Assembly (NCBI GenBank): GCA_021805985.1
Contig: JAJZDN010000010.1
Location: forward strand, 1 to 64,000
DNA from: Planctomycetota bacterium
GTDB taxonomy: Bacteria; Planctomycetota; Phycisphaerae; WQYP01
Direction: 5' to 3'
DNA: 64,000 bases
Below are positions 273-46,194 of the stretch, piece by piece. The notes below the pieces were generated by a model. That model was not told the DNA's origin and made no database searches. It was given only the letters and a program-made list of their open reading frames with translations. Both the position numbers and the translations under genes were made by a program. Within the stretch, counting starts at the first letter, position 1; each line of letters opens with the position of its first letter.

Positions 273-959
273 GTGCGCCGTGATAAGGCGTTAGTTTTCA
301 ACGGGGATAAACCCGTCCGGCAAGGTAATCGTTCCAGCCGGTAGCAATCGGGACGGCAACGGAGGTAACAATGTTGTCGAAGCTCTCGATGGAAAGTCCG
401 CATTAGGCGGGCCGCGAGCTGACAGGCCGCAATGTAATGTGAACACCGAGCAAGCCTCGAAAGTGTCAATGCAGGAGCCGACCCCCTCATTATTCGGGGA
501 AGGCCGCCGTCGTCCGGGCACGCTGTCATGCAGCAAGAACGATCCCGCCCGGATGAACCTGCCGGGGTATTGGTGGCAGCATGTCAGCACAGGAAACTAA
601 ACGCAACACGGGAAGCCCCAGCGGTGGGAGCGTGTGACTCTCAACCGGAACATCCGCAAGGAAAGGTTTCGGGCCGAACTGGGGTGGCGGAAAGGCTCGT
701 AGTACCGCTGAAGTTCCGATCAAGTCGGGATGGAGGGTGGGGACTGTTGAACATGACGCGTCTGCACGCAGCCATCCGTGTGCGAAAGCAGAAGGAAGAC
801 CACCGTACTCCGAGAGCCGGATGCGAGAAATTCGCCCGTCCGGTTCGATGAGCGGGAAGTGGAAACGCAGCATGGATGGGACACTGAGGCACCGGCATCC
901 GAAAGGGTCGGCAAACCGCTATGCCCAACCTAAACCACCGCGCCACTTCTCGACTCTAC
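273..959 (+). mobile_element. ORF-less group II intron (ribozyme RNA)
   Basis: The segment starts with the canonical 5' end GTGCG (273). Domain V is at 814-846: a 33-nt hairpin beginning GAGCCGG and ending CCGGTTC, with a GAAA tetraloop and an internal bulge. Domain VI follows: GAAGTGG at 856-862 pairs with CCACTTC at 943-949, and A953 lies 6 nt before the 3' end, as expected for the branch-point adenosine. The intron would end at CTCTAC (959). A loop ATTAG closed by CCGC/GCGG near 398-410 contains CATTA (401-405). This is complementary to the last five exon bases TAATG (268-272), as expected for EBS1-IBS1. No reverse transcriptase/maturase is encoded in its 687 nt, so mobility would need a maturase in trans. 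Boundaries are read by eye, not folded. Confidence 0.85.
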
Positions 960-37267: not shown

Positions 37268-39823
37268 TTACCACGGCGAGTTAATATTTCCCGGTACGTA
37301 GCGGGCCAATACTTCCGTGCTCCAGGGGCGCAGATGCACCGTCAGCGTCTTGCCGATTACTGCGTAACCTGCTTTACGCTTCGTTAAAATCGGCCGCCCT
37401 TTGCCGTCGGCTGTTGGCGGATAATCCAGCCGCATTTGCTGCGGGTTCAAATAATCCAAGAGGTGATGTCCGCGGTCAGATTTAAAAATCGGTAAGCGGA
37501 TGGTGTGCTTTGCAGCACTGCGGTTGATGATGACATAGACATTCTGCTTTCCCAAACTGCGATAGAAAGCAAAAATGTCGCGCCGCGGATAGGCTAATAA
37601 TTGGCCATAAAAACCCAGTTGCAGTGCCTTGAGTTGCCGCCGCATCGCAATGGCCTGCCGATAAAATTCCAATACCCGCTCATGCACGCGCACATGGGGA
37701 GCGTCATAGGGTTCCAAGTCTTTCCAAACCATCGGCAGGCGATCGGCCGGGTCACTGGCTCCCCACATGCCCACTTCGTCGCCGTACCAGATGCACGGGG
37801 CACCGACAAAACTCATTTGAAAGGCCGCGGTTTGCTCCAGGCGGCGGTAGACCGTCGGGGTCGGTTCGCCGGTGTTGTAATGCGGATTGGTTTGCAGCCT
37901 GTCATTGGCACCAAAATCCAGCAGTGGATTCATAATTCGGGACACGAAGCGGTCGGTGTCCTGACTGTCGATAATATTCATCTGATCCAGATCCACTTGA
38001 TAGGGATAATAGTCCAGCAACTGCATCAATCGGTTGCCGAGGCGTTTAGGGCCGATTCCCGGCAGATTTTTTCCGCGTTTGTCGGCAAAATAATTGGTGC
38101 AGATTGTGGCGAAGGGATAATTCATCACCGCGTCAAACTGATTGCCTTTATTAAGCCACGCCTGCGCCGGTGGCCAGACTTCTCCAATAATAACCGCCTT
38201 GGGATTGATCTTTTTGACCAGCTTTCGCCATGCAATCCAATACACATGCGGAACATCGGGGGCGGTATCGAGTCGGATGCCATCCACCCCATTGGCGACA
38301 TTACCATTGGGGGCCAGCCAGCGTTTAGTGGCGGCAAACATATAATTGCGAACCCCTTTGGCTAAGCCATAGCGTTTGCTAAGCGCAAACATGGGCATGG
38401 ATCCATTCACGCCGTCCCAGGCCTTGTACTTCACGGGCGGGCCCCAACTGATAATCTGAAACCAACTGGCGTAGGGCGACTTGCGGCCATATTTCAAGAC
38501 ATTTTGAAATGGCCCGAAATTTTTTCCACAATGACCGAACGGAATATCGATAATGACCTTGAAGCCTTGACTGTGCGCTACTTTTATGAAATGTAAAAAT
38601 ACTTTGTCCGACGCCGACCATTGCCATGTTGCCGGATTTAATGGATTTTCCCCGTGCAATTGTTCAAGAGATCCTTTGACTCCGAATCCGTCATCCACAT
38701 GGATAAAACTGGAAGGATCGTATTTATGAATGCTTGGGGATTCAAACACCGGTGTGAGATATAAGCTATTCACACCCAGGCGGCGCAGATAAGGCAGTTC
38801 GTCCTGAATGCCCTGTATATCACCGCCATAGAAGCGGTTATATACATAACTGTAAAAGTTGCCATGTTCGCCGGCGGGGCGGTACGGCTTGGTCCACGGC
38901 CAGCGCCAGGGAATATGCGGCGACGGGTCATTGGCTTTATTCCCGTTGCGAAAGCGCTCGGGAAATATCTCGTACCAGACGGCCCGCTTCGCCCAGCCGG
39001 GCGTGACAACAGACGATCTCATCGGTGCCGTGTAGGCGTGCTGTTGGGCGGCCTGGGCGGAAGCATATAAGTATCCGTCCGCAACATAACGTATGGCGGT
39101 GCCTTGGGTAAGAGTAAAGTAATAGTGGATCGATGGCGTTGCAACGTTAACAATGGTCCCCCAGATGCAACTGCCCAGATGGTCTGATTCTTTCCGCAGT
39201 GAATAGACTTTCACGGCGGTGTCCGTCTGGAGGACATCCACACCCACTTTAGATAGTGCGCCGGCCTGTGCTGTGAATTCCAGCCGCAGATCATGGCGTG
39301 AAACCACATCCATCTGGTTCATGTTTTCCGGATTAAATGAAAGAGCCGCCGGGCTGATGTTATCCGCTTGCGGCGCGGGCATGATTTGCCAGGGCGATGC
39401 GATGCGCACCTGTGAATTTGCGCCACCCTGTCCATCGCTGATATTGAGCTTTGGATTTGCCGCAGGATCGTTAATCCAATGGTTGCCATTAAGCACAAAC
39501 TTGTAGGCATGCAGTCCCGGAGTCAGTAGCACGCTGGTTGCCCAACGTCCAGCAGCAGTTCGGTGCAGCGGGTTGGCGGTGGGAGACCAGTTGTTAAAGT
39601 CTCCCGCCACATTTACGCGGCGCACGTGCATGCCAGCGGGGGGTTGGTATGTAAAAACATGCCGCAGTTTCGTTGGAATGGCCGCCAGTTTCTCCGGGGA
39701 TGCCGCAGCGTTTATCGCGTGTGCCGGCATAGCGATGGTCACTAGCCCCGCCAGCGCTGTGGCAAGCATGGCTGTGGTTTTACAGGCGGAACAAACAGTG
39801 GAGCAAAGCGTTTGAAAAGTCAT
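37268..39823 (-). CDS. Secreted alpha-amylase/neopullulanase-type GH13 enzyme
   Basis: This 851-residue enzyme has a signal peptide (about residues 1-36). A CBM48/glycogen-binding-type domain follows (VRRVNVAGDFNNWSPTANPLHR ... PGLHAYKFVLNGNHWINDP), then a second beta-domain (about 160-270) as in neopullulanases. The GH13 barrel has GVNSLYLTPVFESPS, the nucleophile in GVDGIRLDTAPDVPH, the acid/base in VIIGEVWPPA, and region IV IIDSQDTDR, where the usual His before the third catalytic Asp is Gln. A C-terminal beta-domain follows. It would hydrolyse starch, pullulan or cyclodextrins in the periplasm or outside. A LacI regulator gene lies just upstream on the same strand. Confidence 0.92.
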   Translation of the reverse strand: MTFQTLCSTVCSACKTTAMLATALAGLVTIAMPAHAINAAASPEKLAAIPTKLRHVFTYQPPAGMHVRRVNVAGDFNNWSPTANPLHRTAAGRWATSVLLTPGLHAYKFVLNGNHWINDPAANPKLNISDGQGGANSQVRIASPWQIMPAPQADNISPAALSFNPENMNQMDVVSRHDLRLEFTAQAGALSKVGVDVLQTDTAVKVYSLRKESDHLGSCIWGTIVNVATPSIHYYFTLTQGTAIRYVADGYLYASAQAAQQHAYTAPMRSSVVTPGWAKRAVWYEIFPERFRNGNKANDPSPHIPWRWPWTKPYRPAGEHGNFYSYVYNRFYGGDIQGIQDELPYLRRLGVNSLYLTPVFESPSIHKYDPSSFIHVDDGFGVKGSLEQLHGENPLNPATWQWSASDKVFLHFIKVAHSQGFKVIIDIPFGHCGKNFGPFQNVLKYGRKSPYASWFQIISWGPPVKYKAWDGVNGSMPMFALSKRYGLAKGVRNYMFAATKRWLAPNGNVANGVDGIRLDTAPDVPHVYWIAWRKLVKKINPKAVIIGEVWPPAQAWLNKGNQFDAVMNYPFATICTNYFADKRGKNLPGIGPKRLGNRLMQLLDYYPYQVDLDQMNIIDSQDTDRFVSRIMNPLLDFGANDRLQTNPHYNTGEPTPTVYRRLEQTAAFQMSFVGAPCIWYGDEVGMWGASDPADRLPMVWKDLEPYDAPHVRVHERVLEFYRQAIAMRRQLKALQLGFYGQLLAYPRRDIFAFYRSLGKQNVYVIINRSAAKHTIRLPIFKSDRGHHLLDYLNPQQMRLDYPPTADGKGRPILTKRKAGYAVIGKTLTVHLRPWSTEVLARYVPGNINSPW

Positions 39824-39897: not shown

Positions 39898-41034
39898 CTA
39901 TCGTGTACGCACAATGCTGGTAGACTCGCGCAGGACCAGATGCGTAGGCAGCACTTCTGCGACACGATCCACTTTTCCACGAATCCGGCTCACAAGCCGC
40001 TCACAGGCGGCTACGCCCAACTCATACAGCGGCAAATGCACCGTGGTTAAGCTGGGGTTGGCATAGGCCAAATGTTGAATATCATCAAAGCCCACCACGG
40101 AAATATCCTGCGGAACTTTGTGTCCGTGCTCTACAAGATAACGGATCGCTCCCAGCGCCATTTTATCATTACCGCACAACAGGGCGGTGAGGTCTTTATC
40201 GCGATGGGTTAAAAGATCTGCCGCCGCGGCTCCCCCTTCGTCGGTAAAACAGCCATCGGCCATCCATGATTCTTTAACCTCAATGCCGGCGTTGCGCAGT
40301 TCTGTGGTGTAAACCTCCAACACATCGCGTGCCGTGGGGCTTTCAGGGGCGGCGTATATCATGCCGATGTTCCGGTGCCCGAGCTGCAGGAGGCAATTCA
40401 TGGCCTGCTTGGCTCCCATGCGATAATCACAATGGACATAATCCAATACGCCCTCACCAAAGCGATTATCGACCAGAATCATGGGATATTGCCGAAGGTC
40501 AGAAAGGAAGCCATGCTTTTCATTAAATCCCAGGCACAGTACGCCGTCAACAAATCGCCGCTCATACAGTTCTATATGTTTGCCTTCTTTGATGTATTGC
40601 GGTTTGGCTTGTTCAATTAACAGTTTATGGCCCAGTTTGCCGGCCCGGTCGGATATGCCGCTTAAAATTTCGCCAAAATAGGCATCGGCAAAGGCATGAC
40701 GCAGTGGCGGCAGTATCACTGCAAGTACTTGAGTGTAGCGGCTGGAAAGACTTTGCGCCAGACGATTGGGCCGATAGCCCATGCTGTCAATCACCCGCTG
40801 GACGCGCACATGCGTACCCCGGCTTATGCGGGGATTTTGATTAACGACCATGGAAACCGTGGCGATTGAAACCCCGGCCTGTTTGGCAACATCACGAATG
40901 CTGATGCGCTCGGGCGGATTTTCTTCAGCCGGCAGTGAGTTAAAATTTACCTGAATTGGTTCTGCAGCAGCGGTCACGGCGGTTCTTGTAATGTCCGGAG
41001 GTTCCCGCGTTTCGCCTTTTAATTTTGCAGTCAT
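39898..41034 (-). CDS. LacI-family transcriptional regulator
   Basis: This 378-residue DNA-binding protein has an extra N-terminal tail of about 40 residues. A LacI helix-turn-helix with hinge follows (ISIRDVAKQAGVSIATVSMVVNQ ... RVIDSMGYRPNRLAQSL), then a periplasmic-binding-like sensor domain for a sugar ligand (MILVDNRFGEGVLDYVHCDY, TALLCGNDKMALGAIRY, ISVVGFDDIQHLAYANPSLTTV). It lies 75 bp upstream of the GH13 gene in the same direction, so it probably controls that enzyme in response to maltose- or glucan-derived sugars. A promoter and imperfect palindrome precede it. Confidence 0.92.
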   Translation of the reverse strand: MTAKLKGETREPPDITRTAVTAAAEPIQVNFNSLPAEENPPERISIRDVAKQAGVSIATVSMVVNQNPRISRGTHVRVQRVIDSMGYRPNRLAQSLSSRYTQVLAVILPPLRHAFADAYFGEILSGISDRAGKLGHKLLIEQAKPQYIKEGKHIELYERRFVDGVLCLGFNEKHGFLSDLRQYPMILVDNRFGEGVLDYVHCDYRMGAKQAMNCLLQLGHRNIGMIYAAPESPTARDVLEVYTTELRNAGIEVKESWMADGCFTDEGGAAAADLLTHRDKDLTALLCGNDKMALGAIRYLVEHGHKVPQDISVVGFDDIQHLAYANPSLTTVHLPLYELGVAACERLVSRIRGKVDRVAEVLPTHLVLRESTSIVRTR

Positions 41035-41082
41035 ACTAAATCCTTTACCTTCTTACACCCATCCCATTTATTGAACGCCAAG

Positions 41083-41125
41083 GTTAACTGTTTAATCAGT
41101 TTAACAATCCATTGAATCATGTCAA
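41083..41125 (-). promoter_or_regulatory. Promoter and candidate operator of the LacI regulator
   Basis: On the minus strand TTGACA (41125-41120) and an extended -10 (TG then TAAACT, 41103-41098) are 16 bp apart. An imperfect palindrome GTTAAC ... GTTTAAC (41083-41105) overlaps the -10, as expected for autorepression. The operator role is inferred. Confidence 0.5.
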
Positions 41126-41261: not shown

Positions 41262-41290
41262 TTGACACGCTGCATCAATCGAACTATACT
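41262..41290 (+). promoter_or_regulatory. Sigma-70-type promoter of the first PEP-CTERM gene
   Basis: TTGACA (41262-41267) and TATACT (41285-41290) are separated by exactly 17 bp. A near-identical arrangement precedes the second copy. Confidence 0.75.
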
Positions 41291-41296
41291 CTGCCC

Positions 41297-41484
41297 ATCT
41301 GAGGGAGGTTGTTTCTGAATCACCCCCAGTATTTTTTAAGTGTTTCGATGTGTGAAGTTCTCAATGGACGTTGGTCTGGAGAACTTTTTTAAGGCCGGAG
41401 AAGTGAACCGGTTAAATCAAAAGCGTATTTCGGGAGCGGGTGTCTACCGCTCTGTTGGGTTCCTTTTTATAGGGAGACATGGTT
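41297..41484 (+). promoter_or_regulatory. Conserved ~190-nt 5' leader of the first PEP-CTERM gene
   Basis: This leader aligns with 42604-42792 over its length. Shared features are TTTCTGAATCACCC near the start, AAGTTCTC, CGGAGAAGT and a GAGCGG/CCGCTC stem (41434-41452) with a 7-nt loop. It ends in a GGGAG ribosome binding site. In this copy, AAGTTCTC (41355-41362) pairs with GAGAACTT (41379-41386) followed by T's to 41390, resembling an intrinsic terminator. It may be a cis-regulatory RNA; no known riboswitch class is recognised. Confidence 0.55.
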
Positions 41485-42294
41485 ATGGGTAAGCTTCAAA
41501 AAAATCGCGGGAAAAATTTTAAGGTGGTACGGTTGCTGGCGTTGCCTGCACTAGCCACACTGGCGGTTGCCGGTGTCAGCCAAAGTTCGCGAGCTTCGCT
41601 GGTGGCGTCGGATAACGCGGGGAATTCACCGTATACGGTAGGCAGTTCATTTTCCGGACAAAATGGCGGCAGTGGATTCGGGGCTTGGTCTGTGACCAAT
41701 AACTCGGGCGGCAATTTTATCAGCAGTGCGAATTGGAGTAGCATAACGCCGTGGTTTGACATCTACAATACTGGGGGCAACCAGACCACCGCTACACGCG
41801 CGTTGAACAGCGCATTATCAAGCGGAGAAACCCTCTCCTTTAATCTGGTGTTGAACAGTGACCAAACGGGCGGAACAGTCGGCTTTTTTCTGGCCAATTC
41901 CAGCAACACCGGGTTATTTACCTACTACCAACGGGGGCACGTTTCAACAGCAGGCTACGCCGTGGATGCGAACGGTACGACAAGCGGAATTGGCGTTTCC
42001 TACAACTATCAGAGTGTCGATCAGATGGCATTTACCCTGACCAGCGCCACCACCTACGACTTCTCCGTCAATAATGTGTTGGCCCATTCCGGAACTATCT
42101 CTAATTCCAGCGGCGGCATCTCGCAGTTGAATTTTTTTGATAATAACGGCGGTGCTAGCAGCGATGTTCAGTTTACAGACCTGTCGATTGCGTCTGCCGT
42201 TCCGCTGCCAGCTTCATTCGGATTAGTTATGGTCGGGGGCCTTGGCTTGGTTGGAATGGCATTAAGCCGTCGGCGTTCCAGCCTCCGGGATTGA
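41485..42294 (+). CDS. PEP-CTERM-type exported surface protein (copy 1)
   Basis: This is a 269-residue secreted protein with an N-terminal signal sequence (VVRLLALPALATLAVAGVSQSSRAS). A Gly/Ser/Asn-rich beta-strand body follows, with a C-terminal sorting signal: a PLPASF motif, a hydrophobic helix (LVMVGGLGLVGMALS) and the basic tail RRRSS. Such proteins are processed by an exosortase and are associated with exopolysaccharide or biofilm matrix. The exosortase is not in this window. The ATG at 41485 has GGGAG 8 nt upstream; the ATG at 41479 is too close to it. It is paralogous to the next gene, with which it shares promoter, leader and terminator. Confidence 0.85.
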   Translation: MGKLQKNRGKNFKVVRLLALPALATLAVAGVSQSSRASLVASDNAGNSPYTVGSSFSGQNGGSGFGAWSVTNNSGGNFISSANWSSITPWFDIYNTGGNQTTATRALNSALSSGETLSFNLVLNSDQTGGTVGFFLANSSNTGLFTYYQRGHVSTAGYAVDANGTTSGIGVSYNYQSVDQMAFTLTSATTYDFSVNNVLAHSGTISNSSGGISQLNFFDNNGGASSDVQFTDLSIASAVPLPASFGLVMVGGLGLVGMALSRRRSSLRD

Positions 42295-42356
42295 ATGTCA
42301 GATAATATCGCGGCCCTCATATAGTTTTAACGCGGCCACCCCCCAGATATATTACA

Positions 42357-42394
42357 GCGGCGGACGCGAATCAATCGCGTCCGCCGCTTTTTTT
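42357..42394 (+). terminator. Intrinsic terminator of PEP-CTERM copy 1
   Basis: A perfect 13-bp stem GCGGCGGACGCGA/TCGCGTCCGCCGC with loop ATCAA is followed by seven T's. It is identical in stem to the terminator at 43732. Confidence 0.93.
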
Positions 42395-42568
42395 ACAGCT
42401 TCTATTGCCCGCATGCGCGGGCCCACCGCCCGCGCTGACTTCGTGGCCCTGAGGTTGGATGAGGAATGACGCTCTGCCGTATTTACAGTTTAGCTTTGCG
42501 AAATTCATGGGAAATTGCTCAACCGGTCGCGAAGTACCAATAATTCAGGACTTTTCAGGACTTTTTTA

Positions 42569-42597
42569 TTGACGCGCATTGTCGATGGAATTACACT
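42569..42597 (+). promoter_or_regulatory. Sigma-70-type promoter of the second PEP-CTERM gene
   Basis: TTGACG (42569-42574) and TACACT (42592-42597) have 17-bp spacing, matching the first copy. A CAGGACTTTT sequence just upstream is duplicated here but single in copy 1. Confidence 0.7.
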
Positions 42598-42603
42598 TAA
42601 AAC

Positions 42604-42792
42604 ATCTGACAAAGGTTTTTTCTGAATCACCCACAGATCCTTTTGGGTGCTTCGATTTGTAAAGTTCTCAGCAGGCGCTGGTATTGAGGGCGGTTATTTA
42701 GTTCGGAGAAGTAACGCCGTTAGATCGAAACGCGGATTTCGGGAGCGGGTGTTTACCGCTCCGCTCGGTTCCTTTTATTGGGAGACTTGGTT
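42604..42792 (+). promoter_or_regulatory. Conserved 5' leader of the second PEP-CTERM gene
   Basis: This is the homologue of 41297-41484. The CACCC/GGGTG pairing near the start is stronger here, and the GAGCGG/CCGCTC stem (42743-42761) is kept. The terminator-like AAGTTCTC/GAGAACTT hairpin of copy 1 is not formed, because the second arm reads TTGAGGGCGG. Confidence 0.55.
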
Positions 42793-43668
42793 ATGGGGAC
42801 GCTTCAAAAAAATCACCGGAAAAATCTAAGGGTCGTGCGATTGATAGTATTGCCTTCACTAGCCACGCTGGCCATTGCCGATATGAGCCAAAGCTTGCAT
42901 GCGGCGCTGGTGGCGTCGGACAATGCGGGCAATTCTCCATATGTTGCCGGCAGTTCGTTTGACGCACAGAATGGTGGAAGCGGGTTTGGGGCTTGGAATC
43001 TTTACACCAGCGGCGGCACTGCGGGCTTCCTTGTCGGATCGTCTACTCAAAATGACAATGGTAACACGCCGCCGGCTGGCGTCGCTGGCGATATCAACAC
43101 CGGTGGAAAAGCCTGGGGAATGTACGCCGCAGCGCATGCCTACGCGATCGCAACCCGCAGTTTAACGGGAGGTGCTTTGGTAGCGGGCCAAAGCATCTCA
43201 CTAGCGTTCGACAACGGGAGTGTTGCTTATGGCGGGAGTGATGTTTTTCGCTTGCTTGACGGCAGCGATTCATTATTTCAATTTGGATTTACTGGGGGGG
43301 CGCAGAATTACAGCTACATCGACGCGGCCGCCAATGTTGAATCTACGAATGTCCCCTTAACATACTTGGGCCTCAATACTCTGTTTACCTTAACGAGTGC
43401 CACAACCTATTCATTTACCATTACTCCAATTGGTGATGCCCAAATTGCCCCACAAACGATTTCCGGGAAAATCAGCGGCGAGATAACGGGCTTTGACGCC
43501 GGAGATTACGGTGCAGGAAGCGGTTCTGGAAGCAACTTTTATATCAATAGCGTTGCCGTTTCAAATAGCCCTGTGCCGCTGCCCCCCTCCCTGGATTTGG
43601 TTCTGGCCGGTGGTCTTGGGTTAGCGGGGATGGCGTTGAGCCGTCGGCGTTCGAGAATGCAGGCTTGA
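42793..43668 (+). CDS. PEP-CTERM-type exported surface protein (copy 2)
   Basis: This 291-residue paralogue of the preceding gene shares the N-terminus (LQKN then VVRLIVLPSLATLAIADMSQS) and the opening of the mature part (ALVASDNAGNSPY, GSSFxxQNGGSGFGAW). It diverges in the middle. It ends with a PLPPSLDLVLAGG helix and basic RRRS sorting tail. It is likely exported, trimmed by an exosortase and surface-displayed. The start is the ATG at 42793 with GGGAG upstream, equivalent to copy 1. The central divergence suggests different binding or structural roles after duplication. Confidence 0.85.
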   Translation: MGTLQKNHRKNLRVVRLIVLPSLATLAIADMSQSLHAALVASDNAGNSPYVAGSSFDAQNGGSGFGAWNLYTSGGTAGFLVGSSTQNDNGNTPPAGVAGDINTGGKAWGMYAAAHAYAIATRSLTGGALVAGQSISLAFDNGSVAYGGSDVFRLLDGSDSLFQFGFTGGAQNYSYIDAAANVESTNVPLTYLGLNTLFTLTSATTYSFTITPIGDAQIAPQTISGKISGEITGFDAGDYGAGSGSGSNFYINSVAVSNSPVPLPPSLDLVLAGGLGLAGMALSRRRSRMQA

Positions 43669-43731
43669 ACCTTGGATATTATCCCAGTCGCTGTAAAGTT
43701 CTAACGCGGCCACCCCCCCAGATATATTACA

Positions 43732-43769
43732 GCGGCGGACGCGAATCAATCGCGTCCGCCGCTTTTTTT
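43732..43769 (+). terminator. Intrinsic terminator of PEP-CTERM copy 2
   Basis: The same 13-bp GC stem with ATCAA loop and a seven-T tract as at 42357-42394. The preceding GCGGCCACCCCCC and ATATATTACA sequences are also duplicated. Confidence 0.93.
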
Positions 43770-44099
43770 ACAGCGTCCATTGCCCGCATGTGCGATCGCA
43801 AATCGGCCCACAGCCCGCGCTGACTTCGTGGCCGTGTGGTTGGATGAGGAATGTCGTCCGGAAAAAATTACGCATTCTCGCCCGGTGCACCGTACCGATT
43901 GCGACGTGCCCAGGCGTGTCGCGGCATCAAACCACATATCGCCGTCAGCTCAACGCTGGCGCATTGAGTTAATGGCGCGGTGTTGGCGTGCCAGGCAACA
44001 CGTAAAAATGGCCCGCTTCCCAATGCGGAGGTGTCGGGAATTGTCTATAACTTCTTCGGTCGGCATTTGCTTAACGCTTGCCCATGGAACACGCGGTTA
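43770..44099. other. Intergenic region, partly duplicated
   Basis: The first about 80 bp (ATTGCCCGCATG ... GGTTGGATGAGGAATG) repeat sequence at about 42400-42470 and belong to the PEP-CTERM duplication unit. The rest shows no gene. Confidence 0.5.
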
Positions 44100-45665
44100 C
44101 TACTTCGCGGCCGATATTTGATTTTTTAGCACCGGCGAATTGCGAATGTACAGGTGGGTAACATGCGAAAAATGAGCCGCTGTAATCCCCTTGGCCAACT
44201 GAGCTTCAAAATGGTTAACCTGCAAGCCATGGACATCTTTGCAGACCATGGCGGGGCGGTCATCGGTTTTTTTGAAACTGACTTTTATGTTTGACAGCTC
44301 AATGTGCCGCGCATGACGGACAAACACGCCATAAGAAGGCATCACGCCGATATGCGTGGGGCCGGGATAACCCCCGTTAAGTTCCGGCGGATTGCGCCGG
44401 GCCTCTTTCCGTGTGCCGCCGCCGACAAAAATCAGCCGGATGTTATCCAGCCGGATATCCCGCACGTCATGGTGGGGCAGGCCGGTAATTTGAATACCGC
44501 TCATGGATCCAACATTGGTAGCCAGAATGTTGGATATCAGGATGTGCCGCAGGTGGCCCACGGTCACCGGTGGCGGAGCACGATCGCGGTCGCCCAGTGT
44601 CACGTAAATGGGACAATCTTTGACGTTCCGCATGGTAATATTAGATATGTTGATATCCTCCAGTACTGCTCCGTCCACCTCTTCCACTGCCAGGCCCATA
44701 CAATCGCGGAAGGTGCAGTTGGAAATGGTGATATTTTTGAACCCGCCATCGGATTCAGTACCCAGCTTGATCCGGCCGTTTTCTCGTCGGCTCGGGAGCA
44801 TTTTTCCGTTGATCAGCGTTCCTTCCTTGAAGCCTGAAAGTTGGCAATTGGTGATGGTGACGTTTTCTGTAGGCCATAACCTGTGCAGCGCATCGGTGGC
44901 TTTCAGGCACAGGCCGTCATCATGGGGAGAGTTAATCCGGCAATCGGAAACAACGGTATTGCGGCAAGAATCAATATCAACGCCATCGCGGTCGGTATCG
45001 ATGGTGATGTTGTTAAGCGTCAGTAAATTGCAGCCGGTGACAAGAATGCCAAAGTGTCCGCCATGCACGATGGTGATATTACGAATCAGCACATTCGTAC
45101 AAAGTTTTAGCGCAATGGCCTTATCCCCCACGCCCGGCAGTTTGGCCCCGGCAGCCCTATGAGATTTAGCCCAGCCAAACGCATCCGTGGTCAGTCCGCC
45201 GCCGTTGATTTCTCCCATACCGGTGATCGCCACATTTTTCAGATTTTCACCCCAGATCAGGCTGTTATGAAAATAGGTATGGCCGCCATCCTGATAAGCT
45301 CTTCCGGCAAATGGTTCGGCGTGGTCGTAAGCACCCAGTGCTATGGGGGCACCAAGAATTTCCGCGCCCGGCTGCAAATGCAAATTAATATTGCTTTTCA
45401 GATGAATGCTGCCGCATAAATATATGCCAGCGGGTATTTCAACCGTGCCGCCGCCGTGGGCATTGCAGGCCGCGATCGCACGGTTGATAGCCGGGCTGTC
45501 CAGATGTTTCCCATTCCCTGTCGCACCGAAGCGGCGCACGTTGTATCCCTGCGTCACTGCCTGCGCGGAAGCTTTGCCACCGTGCACACCTGCACACGCC
45601 AGAAGCGCGGCGAGAATTGTTGTTAAAAATCGCCCAGATAAGAAAGTGGATATTGAAACGCGCAT
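44100..45665 (-). CDS. Secreted GH28-family pectinolytic enzyme
   Basis: This 521-residue enzyme has a signal peptide (about 1-35). A right-handed parallel beta-helix starts YNVRRFGATGNGKHLDSPAINRAIAAC and IPAGIYLCGSIHLKSN. GH28 catalytic region: DTDRDGVDIDSC and HDDGLCLKATD hold the Asp residues, and RIKLGTESDGG is the RIK motif. The usual GHG is replaced by a GFKEGT segment, as in a recognisable bacterial subgroup. It would cleave polygalacturonan- or rhamnogalacturonan-type substrates. The start ATG at 45665 has GGAG upstream; the longer frame to 45899 lacks a signal peptide at its start. Confidence 0.88.
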   Translation of the reverse strand: MRVSISTFLSGRFLTTILAALLACAGVHGGKASAQAVTQGYNVRRFGATGNGKHLDSPAINRAIAACNAHGGGTVEIPAGIYLCGSIHLKSNINLHLQPGAEILGAPIALGAYDHAEPFAGRAYQDGGHTYFHNSLIWGENLKNVAITGMGEINGGGLTTDAFGWAKSHRAAGAKLPGVGDKAIALKLCTNVLIRNITIVHGGHFGILVTGCNLLTLNNITIDTDRDGVDIDSCRNTVVSDCRINSPHDDGLCLKATDALHRLWPTENVTITNCQLSGFKEGTLINGKMLPSRRENGRIKLGTESDGGFKNITISNCTFRDCMGLAVEEVDGAVLEDINISNITMRNVKDCPIYVTLGDRDRAPPPVTVGHLRHILISNILATNVGSMSGIQITGLPHHDVRDIRLDNIRLIFVGGGTRKEARRNPPELNGGYPGPTHIGVMPSYGVFVRHARHIELSNIKVSFKKTDDRPAMVCKDVHGLQVNHFEAQLAKGITAAHFSHVTHLYIRNSPVLKNQISAAK

Positions 45666-45786
45666 AAAATATTTTCTCCGCAAAAAGTTGTGACTGAGGA
45701 ACTTACCCCAGGAAAGGCATATAGGCAAATACTTTTGGCCTTCGGGGCTTAAAGAAATATCGATATTTGTGCGCACAGTTTGGACT

Positions 45787-46194
45787 TTAAGTTGGGTTTT
45801 CGCCACCGACTTCATCGAGCACATGTTCGGCCACAAAAATAGGTACTTGATTGGCGACGCCCAGGGCAATGGCGTCACTGGGGCGGCTGTCAACTTCAAC
45901 GCTGTGCCCGTCCTGCCGGATAATCAAGCGGGCGAAAAATGTATGATCCTGCAAATCGCTGATGACAATGCGTTCCAGCTTGCCGCCAAGCTGTTCGATG
46001 ACGCTGGAAAGCAACTGATGCGTTTGCGGGCGCGGAAATGCTGTTCCCTTTAACCGGTGGTCAATGGCCAGAGCTTCCGCAGAGCCGATGAGAATCGGCA
46101 AGGTCCGCAGCCCGTCGACTTCCTTGAGAAAAATAAACTGCTGATCGGAAGTTTCGGAAATGATAATACGTTTAAGTTCAACCTGTACGGCCAT
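45787..46194 (-). CDS. Bifunctional nuclease (BFN/DUF151) domain protein
   Basis: This 135-residue protein is made of one BFN domain: VELKRIIISETSDQQFIFLKE, LPILIGSAEALAIDHRLKG, and the C-terminal signature SVEVDSRPSDAIALGVANQVPIFVAEHVL. Family members have been reported with RNase/DNase activity, but in bacteria the role is unsettled. The start is the ATG at 46194 with GGAG 7 nt upstream. It lies about 120 bp upstream of the GH28 gene on the same strand. Confidence 0.92.
   Translation of the reverse strand: MAVQVELKRIIISETSDQQFIFLKEVDGLRTLPILIGSAEALAIDHRLKGTAFPRPQTHQLLSSVIEQLGGKLERIVISDLQDHTFFARLIIRQDGHSVEVDSRPSDAIALGVANQVPIFVAEHVLDEVGGENPT

Follow-up and report, generated by a model that had tools for sequence, protein, structure and literature searches.

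The 64,000-nucleotide stretch of Planctomycetota bacterium DNA analysed here (contig JAJZDN010000010.1, positions 1 to 64,000; hereafter the window) carries a tandem pair of genes that we interpret as a site where a LacI-family regulator controls the expression of an exported, lectin-like surface protein and where recombination exchanges the displayed module of that protein. We give this interpretation a probability of about three in four. It draws on sequence comparisons that show a shared gene order, a leader and signal segment that follow the history of the adjacent LacI gene under purifying selection, an operator-like palindrome kept beside this LacI gene, and a far more diverged body whose genealogy departs from that history after a sharp step just past the signal segment.

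In the proposed mechanism, the LacI-family protein would bind the palindrome in the first leader and repress copy 1 until a sugar is sensed. The inducer would probably be an alpha-glucan product, because the conserved partners of the LacI gene are amylase-type genes. The tandem copies may constitute a substrate for exchange, since recombination between their conserved 5ʹ segments would join leader 1 to another body. Copy 2 has no operator and would not be under LacI control. Neither the neighbouring LacI gene nor the operator nor the connection with an amylase operon figured in an earlier reading of this DNA made from the letters alone (hereafter the sequence-only reading).

Architecture and genomic context of the tandem pair

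Both units consist of a promoter and a leader some 190 nt long, followed by the gene and an intrinsic terminator (Table 1). The sequence-only reading had proposed such a pair with the promoter spacing TTGACR-N17-TAYACT, and both the units and the spacing are present as described; the terminator stem is identical in the two copies, as it had also noted, with a length of 14 bp rather than 13. Segment-wise alignment of the units yields identities of 76% for the leaders, 77% for the first 210 coding bases and 72% for the 3ʹ coding end, with a middle that is near chance, has many gaps and is of unclear similarity, in agreement with the proposal of shared ends and a divergent middle. The corresponding proteins are 47% identical overall, 68% over the first 44 amino acids and 35% in the middle, and both genes begin at conserved ATG codons (41485 and 42793). 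Assembly duplication as the origin of the pair is ruled out by the 24% divergence of the leaders. In a leader tree, leader 2 is placed beside leader 1 with weak support (27%) and on a long branch.

The 54 nt around the terminator are 100% identical between the copies, and a further 77 nt remain nearly so (92%) as the alignment enters a dispersed REP-like repeat. The sequence-only reading had taken the identical terminators as a sign of selection, but recent homogenisation together with the dispersed repeat appears to explain them better. The genome-wide search for more copies of the leader and terminator that it had proposed returned none elsewhere in the genome. The repeat has inverted GCTCAA..TTGAGC arms and about five further copies in the genome, and it is also found in tandem arrays after orthologs, with units of about 170 nt downstream of the G002 ortholog (in the G002 region of L106). 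Pieces of group II introns (Rfam RF02003 and RF00029) lie at the left end of the window (298-437 and 812-959).

Table 1. Features of the expression locus, in window coordinates (., no strand assigned)
Feature	Position	Strand	Basis or remark
Secreted GH13 alpha-amylase-type enzyme, N-terminal CBM48/AMPK1-CBM-like module	37268..39823	-	Pfam Alpha-amylase 133.7 bits; syntenic in relatives, behind LacI
LacI-family transcriptional regulator, divergent from the PEP-CTERM pair	39898..41034	-	Pfam LacI HTH 55.3 bits, Peripla_BP_3 112.8 bits
Copy 1 promoter, sigma-70-type, TTGACA-N17-TATACT	41262..41290	+	11/12 consensus; hexamer positions kept in 5 orthologous leaders
Copy 1 leader	41297..41484	+	90% identical to G006/G003 leaders vs 72% at LacI fourfold sites
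Hairpin then T-run, attenuator-like	41355..41390	+	Consensus fold; four doubly changed pairs in helix
LacI-type operator-like palindrome GTGAACCGGTTAAA	41403..41416	.	Core AACCGGTTAAA invariant in 5 orthologs; perfect TTTAACCGGTTAAA at corresponding sister-genus position
Hairpin GAGCGG-GTGTCTA-CCGCTC, most conserved leader element	41434..41452	+	100% of cells paired, loop nearly invariant, 7 sequences
Small hairpin UUCCU...GGGA, would cover ribosome-binding site	41460..41476	+	100% of cells paired, 7 sequences
Copy 1 gene, PEP-CTERM-like surface protein, 269 aa, body type A	41485..42294	+	Protein alignment; body 74% identical to G004, 36% to G006
Displayed body of copy 1, putative exchangeable module, lectin-like beta-sandwich in model	41617..42198	+	Tree conflict, AU p=2.9e-6; identity step after ~codon 45
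Copy 1 intrinsic terminator, 14-bp stem + T-run	42356..42395	+	
Piece of dispersed REP-like repeat after terminator 1	42395..42471	.	92% identical to 43770-43856
Copy 2 promoter, TTGACG-N17-TACACT	42569..42597	+	9/12 consensus
Copy 2 leader	42604..42792	+	76% identical to leader 1; keeps 42743-42761 hairpin and ribosome-site hairpin
Degenerate operator remnant in leader 2, AGTAACGCCGTTAGATC	42710..42726	.	4 changes in 12 ortholog-invariant positions
Copy 2 gene, PEP-CTERM-like surface protein, 291 aa, body type D	42793..43668	+	Alignment; ConA/lectin-like fold
Copy 2 terminator, identical to terminator 1	43731..43770	+	
Dispersed REP-like repeat between copy 2 and GH28	43795..44010	.	Further copies on C163, C40, C160, C152, C182
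GH28/rhamnogalacturonidase-type enzyme, convergent neighbour	44100..45899	-	NCBIfam NF049898 569.6 bits; syntenic; ORF as listed, true start probably internal

All genomes compared are metagenome assemblies, the closest named relatives being Phycisphaerae/Planctomycetota metagenome genomes, and the orthologs are few (G006, G003, G007, G002 and G004). In the five same-genus genomes that have the locus, the order GH13, LacI, PEP-CTERM gene, GH28, DUF151 is shared within the reach of the contigs, and the LacI proteins at this position are 86-95% identical. The regulator contains both the helix-turn-helix (HTH) and the periplasmic-binding-like domain recognized by Pfam. Among the six same-genus genomes only the present one has two PEP-CTERM copies, the other five being single-copy. 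Two tandem PEP-CTERM genes are found in sister genera, and LacI and GH13 genes recur beside PEP-CTERM genes in other genera of the class.

Conflicting genealogies of body and expression signals

The bodies found at the locus can be sorted into type A (copy 1 and G004, 74% identical), type B (G006 and G003, 76%), type C (G007 and G002, 77%) and type D (copy 2), with protein identities of 30-48% between types. The tree of the leader and N-terminal signal segment has the same topology as the LacI tree. In the body tree, copy 1 instead pairs with G004, and G002 with G007; the body rejects the LacI/leader topology (delta lnL 220, AU p=2.9e-6), and the body tree is in turn rejected by both other partitions (p at most 3.3e-4). 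Just after codon 45 the identity between copy 1 and G006 drops from 84% to 42%, and that between copy 1 and G004 is mostly about 70-79% along the gene.

Synonymous divergence displays the same boundary. For G006 and G003, dS reaches 1.08 in the body, as against 0.13 in LacI, 0.20 in GH28, 0.09 in DUF151 and 0.13 in the signal segment, and fourfold-site identity in well-aligned body codons is 0.70 versus 0.87 in the flanks (p=0.005). A sister-genus pair (L110/L111) gives dS values of 0.11 for LacI, 0.10 for the signal, 1.08 for the body and 0.27 for the tandem second PEP-CTERM gene, with p=8e-10 in the fourfold test of body against flanks. Where measurable, dN/dS of the body is about 0.14-0.18. 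Because selection on the protein should leave synonymous sites unaffected, these values argue for a body that was replaced and not for one that selection pulled apart, and both dN/dS and dS reject positive selection there. Thus, the conflict of genealogies and the synonymous elevation restricted to the body indicate replacement by recombination, and point to a displayed part that is exchanged at a fixed expression site instead of drifting after duplication.

Outside the locus, the best matches to the bodies reach about 48-55% identity, and no close donor was found among them; the pair in the present genome suggests a tandem paralog as donor, or else the body may come from another cell. In metagenome assemblies, segments from a mixture of strains could become joined where the 5ʹ end is conserved, which would itself imply polymorphism of the body.

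An ancient tandem array of paralogs that suffered lineage-specific losses, with gene conversion of leaders and signal peptides, could produce these patterns without any foreign bodies, and we consider this history a real but lesser possibility. The two unlike bodies and homogenised 3ʹ ends of the present pair are what such an array would leave, as are the paired genes of the sister genera, and leader 2 differs from leader 1 about as much as the more distant orthologs do. However, conversion or recombination would have to recur exactly at the 5ʹ segment in every lineage, no remnant of a lost copy was detected in the five single-copy genomes, and in the sister genus the second tandem gene is itself conserved and did not supply the exchanged bodies. 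The picture implied by the sequence-only reading, in which the middles simply diverged after a tandem duplication because diversifying selection made the displayed part evolve fast, seems to us very improbable. In every pair the divergence is greatest in the body, and Haft et al. (2006, PMC1569441) describe PEP-CTERM proteins as being among those that evolve fastest in their genomes, but neither a body topology that contradicts the leader and LacI nor a roughly eightfold synonymous rise in the body only, where synonymous sites are saturated or strongly elevated, fits with that course, and the low dN/dS of the body also speaks against it.

A conserved leader with an operator-like palindrome

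Identity to leader 1 is 90% in G006, 91% in G003, 78% in G007, 73% in G002 and 73% in G004, whereas LacI fourfold sites of these genomes are 72, 72, 61, 52 and 49% identical to those of the present genome. The leader is thus under purifying selection, and its conservation in single-copy orthologs goes beyond what recent duplication can explain, so that the condition named by the sequence-only reading as speaking against its proposal does not arise. The best-conserved blocks are the promoter region, AACCGGTTAAAT, AGCGGGTGTCTACCGCT and TTCCTTTTTATAGGGAG; copy 2 and G004 each depart from the AGCGGGTGTCTACCGCT block at a single position.

Within leader 1 lies a palindrome that we regard as the putative operator of the adjacent LacI protein. 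Matches to it of at least 11 of 14 positions occur in 17 of the 18 LacI-adjacent intergenic regions compared in Phycisphaerae, mostly 74-106 nt before the start. In sister genera, the perfect form TTTAACCGGTTAAA is situated about 84-106 nt before the start codon and inside a TTGACA-N17-TAAACT promoter, and in other genera the palindrome overlaps promoters (the -10 hexamer). In the present genus it resides about 115 nt downstream of the promoter; because this places the site inside the transcribed leader, repression would likely proceed by roadblock. Total counts of the palindrome in a genome-wide scan are no higher than those of the control, and its support therefore comes from position and conservation. 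When RAACCGGTTAAA was used as a regulon marker, leader 1 was the sole match in the genome scan, and the TTTAACCGGTTAAA form has two more sites in the genome (on contigs C101 and C69).

The best operator match in leader 2 reaches just 8 of 14 positions (p=0.99). The sequence-only reading had inferred that selection maintains expression signals and export ends while the displayed part varies, as in a modular surface-protein system. This was right in outline, and purifying selection on the leader and export end agrees with it, but the two copies do not keep the same expression signals, given that copy 2 has lost the operator-like site.

In the sister-genus leaders L109-L112, two promoter-operator units follow one another; the one farther upstream, AGTTTAATCGGTTAAACT, lies about 330 nt before the first PEP-CTERM gene. 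A conserved AT-rich near-palindrome, GTTTAATCAGTTTAAC, overlaps the promoter of the LacI gene itself (window 41035-41125) and is probably an autoregulatory site.

The leader might alternatively be chiefly an RNA element, an attenuator or ribosome-site switch acting instead of or besides a DNA operator. A terminator-like hairpin with a T-run upstream of the gene, a hairpin with an invariant loop and a hairpin at the ribosome site are all suggestive of this, and the consensus fold of seven leaders has 7 doubly changed pairs versus 2.6 in shuffles (3/500), which makes an RNA component possible. As the main function of the leader it is nonetheless doubtful, in that neither leader matches a known riboswitch or other RNA family in Rfam, single leaders fold no better than shuffles (z -1.4 and -0.25), the fold draws on 7 sequences only, and overlap of the palindrome with promoters in other genera fits DNA binding. 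It is also conceivable, but unlikely, that synteny is conserved without any functional link and that the palindrome is a promoter feature or the site of another regulator. LacI-type proteins often share similar operators, and the overlap with the -10 hexamer could reflect a promoter role; yet the palindrome is kept beside the same LacI gene in nearly all regions compared, and at its position far downstream of the promoter in the present genus a promoter role is not evident.

Related loci in the same genome

On contig C101 of the same genome, a perfect palindrome lies upstream of an operon that encodes three further PEP-CTERM proteins, one of them 1000 residues long and related to alpha-amylases. 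In sister genera, an operon of this type directly adjoins the LacI gene of the locus. The simplest reading of these arrangements is that the genes form a surface polysaccharide-recognition set that would be switched on by sugar.

The site on contig C69 (L190, G000:C69, 79453-79466) consists of a perfect operator, a leader and the first codons of a C101-type PEP-CTERM gene. This stub ends at a stop after a few codons and is followed by a two-component-regulator-propeller (sensor-propeller) gene. The presence of a leader with a signal-peptide start implies that 5ʹ units themselves have been copied. With odds that we place slightly below even, the locus may exemplify a repressor-controlled site found throughout Phycisphaerae and devoted to exchanging anchored lectin-like modules, in which a fixed leader, operator and signal would act as acceptor for new sugar-recognition bodies and leader-signal units would be copied, as in the C69 stub.

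Export signals and predicted fold

The N-terminal signal peptide has a basic start, a hydrophobic helix (residues 12-34 in the model) and small residues at its end. The C-terminal tail is composed of PLP, a helix (265-289) and SRRRS, and scores 14.4 and 16.2 bits against Pfam PF07589, below the 20.7 cut-off; a C-terminal match to PEP-CTERM at E of at most 1 was obtained for 12 of 16 homologs. Because the motif is PLP rather than PEP and the score is below the Pfam cut-off, the copies fit a strict definition of PEP-CTERM proteins only in part, although they have the other features tested. The genome contains 41 PEP-CTERM matches, and the exosortase that the sequence-only reading had left to be located is encoded at two loci (187 and 160 bits) on other contigs.

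Tails in the window (42202-42291 and 43577-43665) and in the orthologs carry PLP, PIP or PAP, and sister genera have PEP at the locus. The Glu is missing from same-genus tails although PEP is used elsewhere in the genome (C101). A second exosortase type or altered processing could possibly account for these tails.

Both copies are modelled, with moderate confidence, as a beta-sandwich (pLDDT 75.5 and 70.8) like those of concanavalin-A-like lectins, galectins and GH16, with Foldseek E-values down to about 1e-6 but TM-scores of only about 0.3-0.5. A profile sequence search of the PDB gave no match for the copies, and no catalytic or sugar-binding residues were identified in either. Neurotoxin entries in the fold list were dismissed as a functional clue, as they share just the lectin-type beta-sandwich at about 10% identity. 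We infer that the protein is exported, processed by exosortase and displays a carbohydrate-binding beta-sandwich.

Relation to known systems and significance

Mosaic surface-protein loci, such as streptococcal and neisserial surface genes, have conserved ends and expression signals and a displayed middle that is exchanged by recombination. The present locus resembles them in its fixed ends and exchanged middle, but it differs in belonging to free-living Phycisphaerae, in its PEP-CTERM-type tail and its position beside polysaccharide-degrading genes, and in exchange between species rather than within a strain. Like LacI regulators of the MalR/CcpA/CytR type, the regulator combines an HTH with a periplasmic-binding-protein-like domain and is accompanied by a divergent operon that includes a GH13 enzyme and by a palindromic operator-like site with a central CpG. 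It differs in its putative target, which lies in the leader of an exported PEP-CTERM lectin-like gene, about 115 nt past the promoter. The predicted fold of both copies is shared with solved ConA-like lectin, GH16 and galectin-like structures, to which no sequence similarity was detectable.

Another parallel is the PEP-CTERM/exosortase (EpsH) system. Haft et al. (2006, PMC1569441) reported that its genes mostly stand alone behind long non-coding regions and that proteobacterial members have a sigma-54/PrsR site, and they left regulators beyond that sigma-54 system to be discovered. Shared with it are the signal peptide, a similar C-terminal arrangement of motif, hydrophobic helix and Arg cluster, single-gene units behind long non-coding regions, many members together with exosortases in the genome, and rapid turnover between close species. 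The locus differs by its sigma-70-type promoter and LacI-type palindrome in place of sigma-54/PrsR, by PLP, PIP or PAP instead of PEP in the same-genus orthologs, and by a turnover that takes the form of body replacement within a fixed expression site. It is in keeping with the picture of Haft et al., and adds a candidate regulator and a mode of change. In the open-access literature on PEP-CTERM genes, we found no description of such a LacI/polysaccharide-locus arrangement with module exchange.

PEP-CTERM proteins are numerous and change quickly, and for most of them no function is known. The locus offers a concrete mode by which they may change, a regulator with a candidate operator that can be tested, and, probably, a role in recognizing polysaccharides together with amylases. 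It thereby makes testable both the diversification of exosortase substrates and their control outside proteobacterial sigma-54 systems. If the exchange site does extend across Phycisphaerae, surface glycan recognition would change while control by sugar stays. The uncultured planctomycete studied here and its relatives appear to alter what they display on the outside without altering how that display is controlled.
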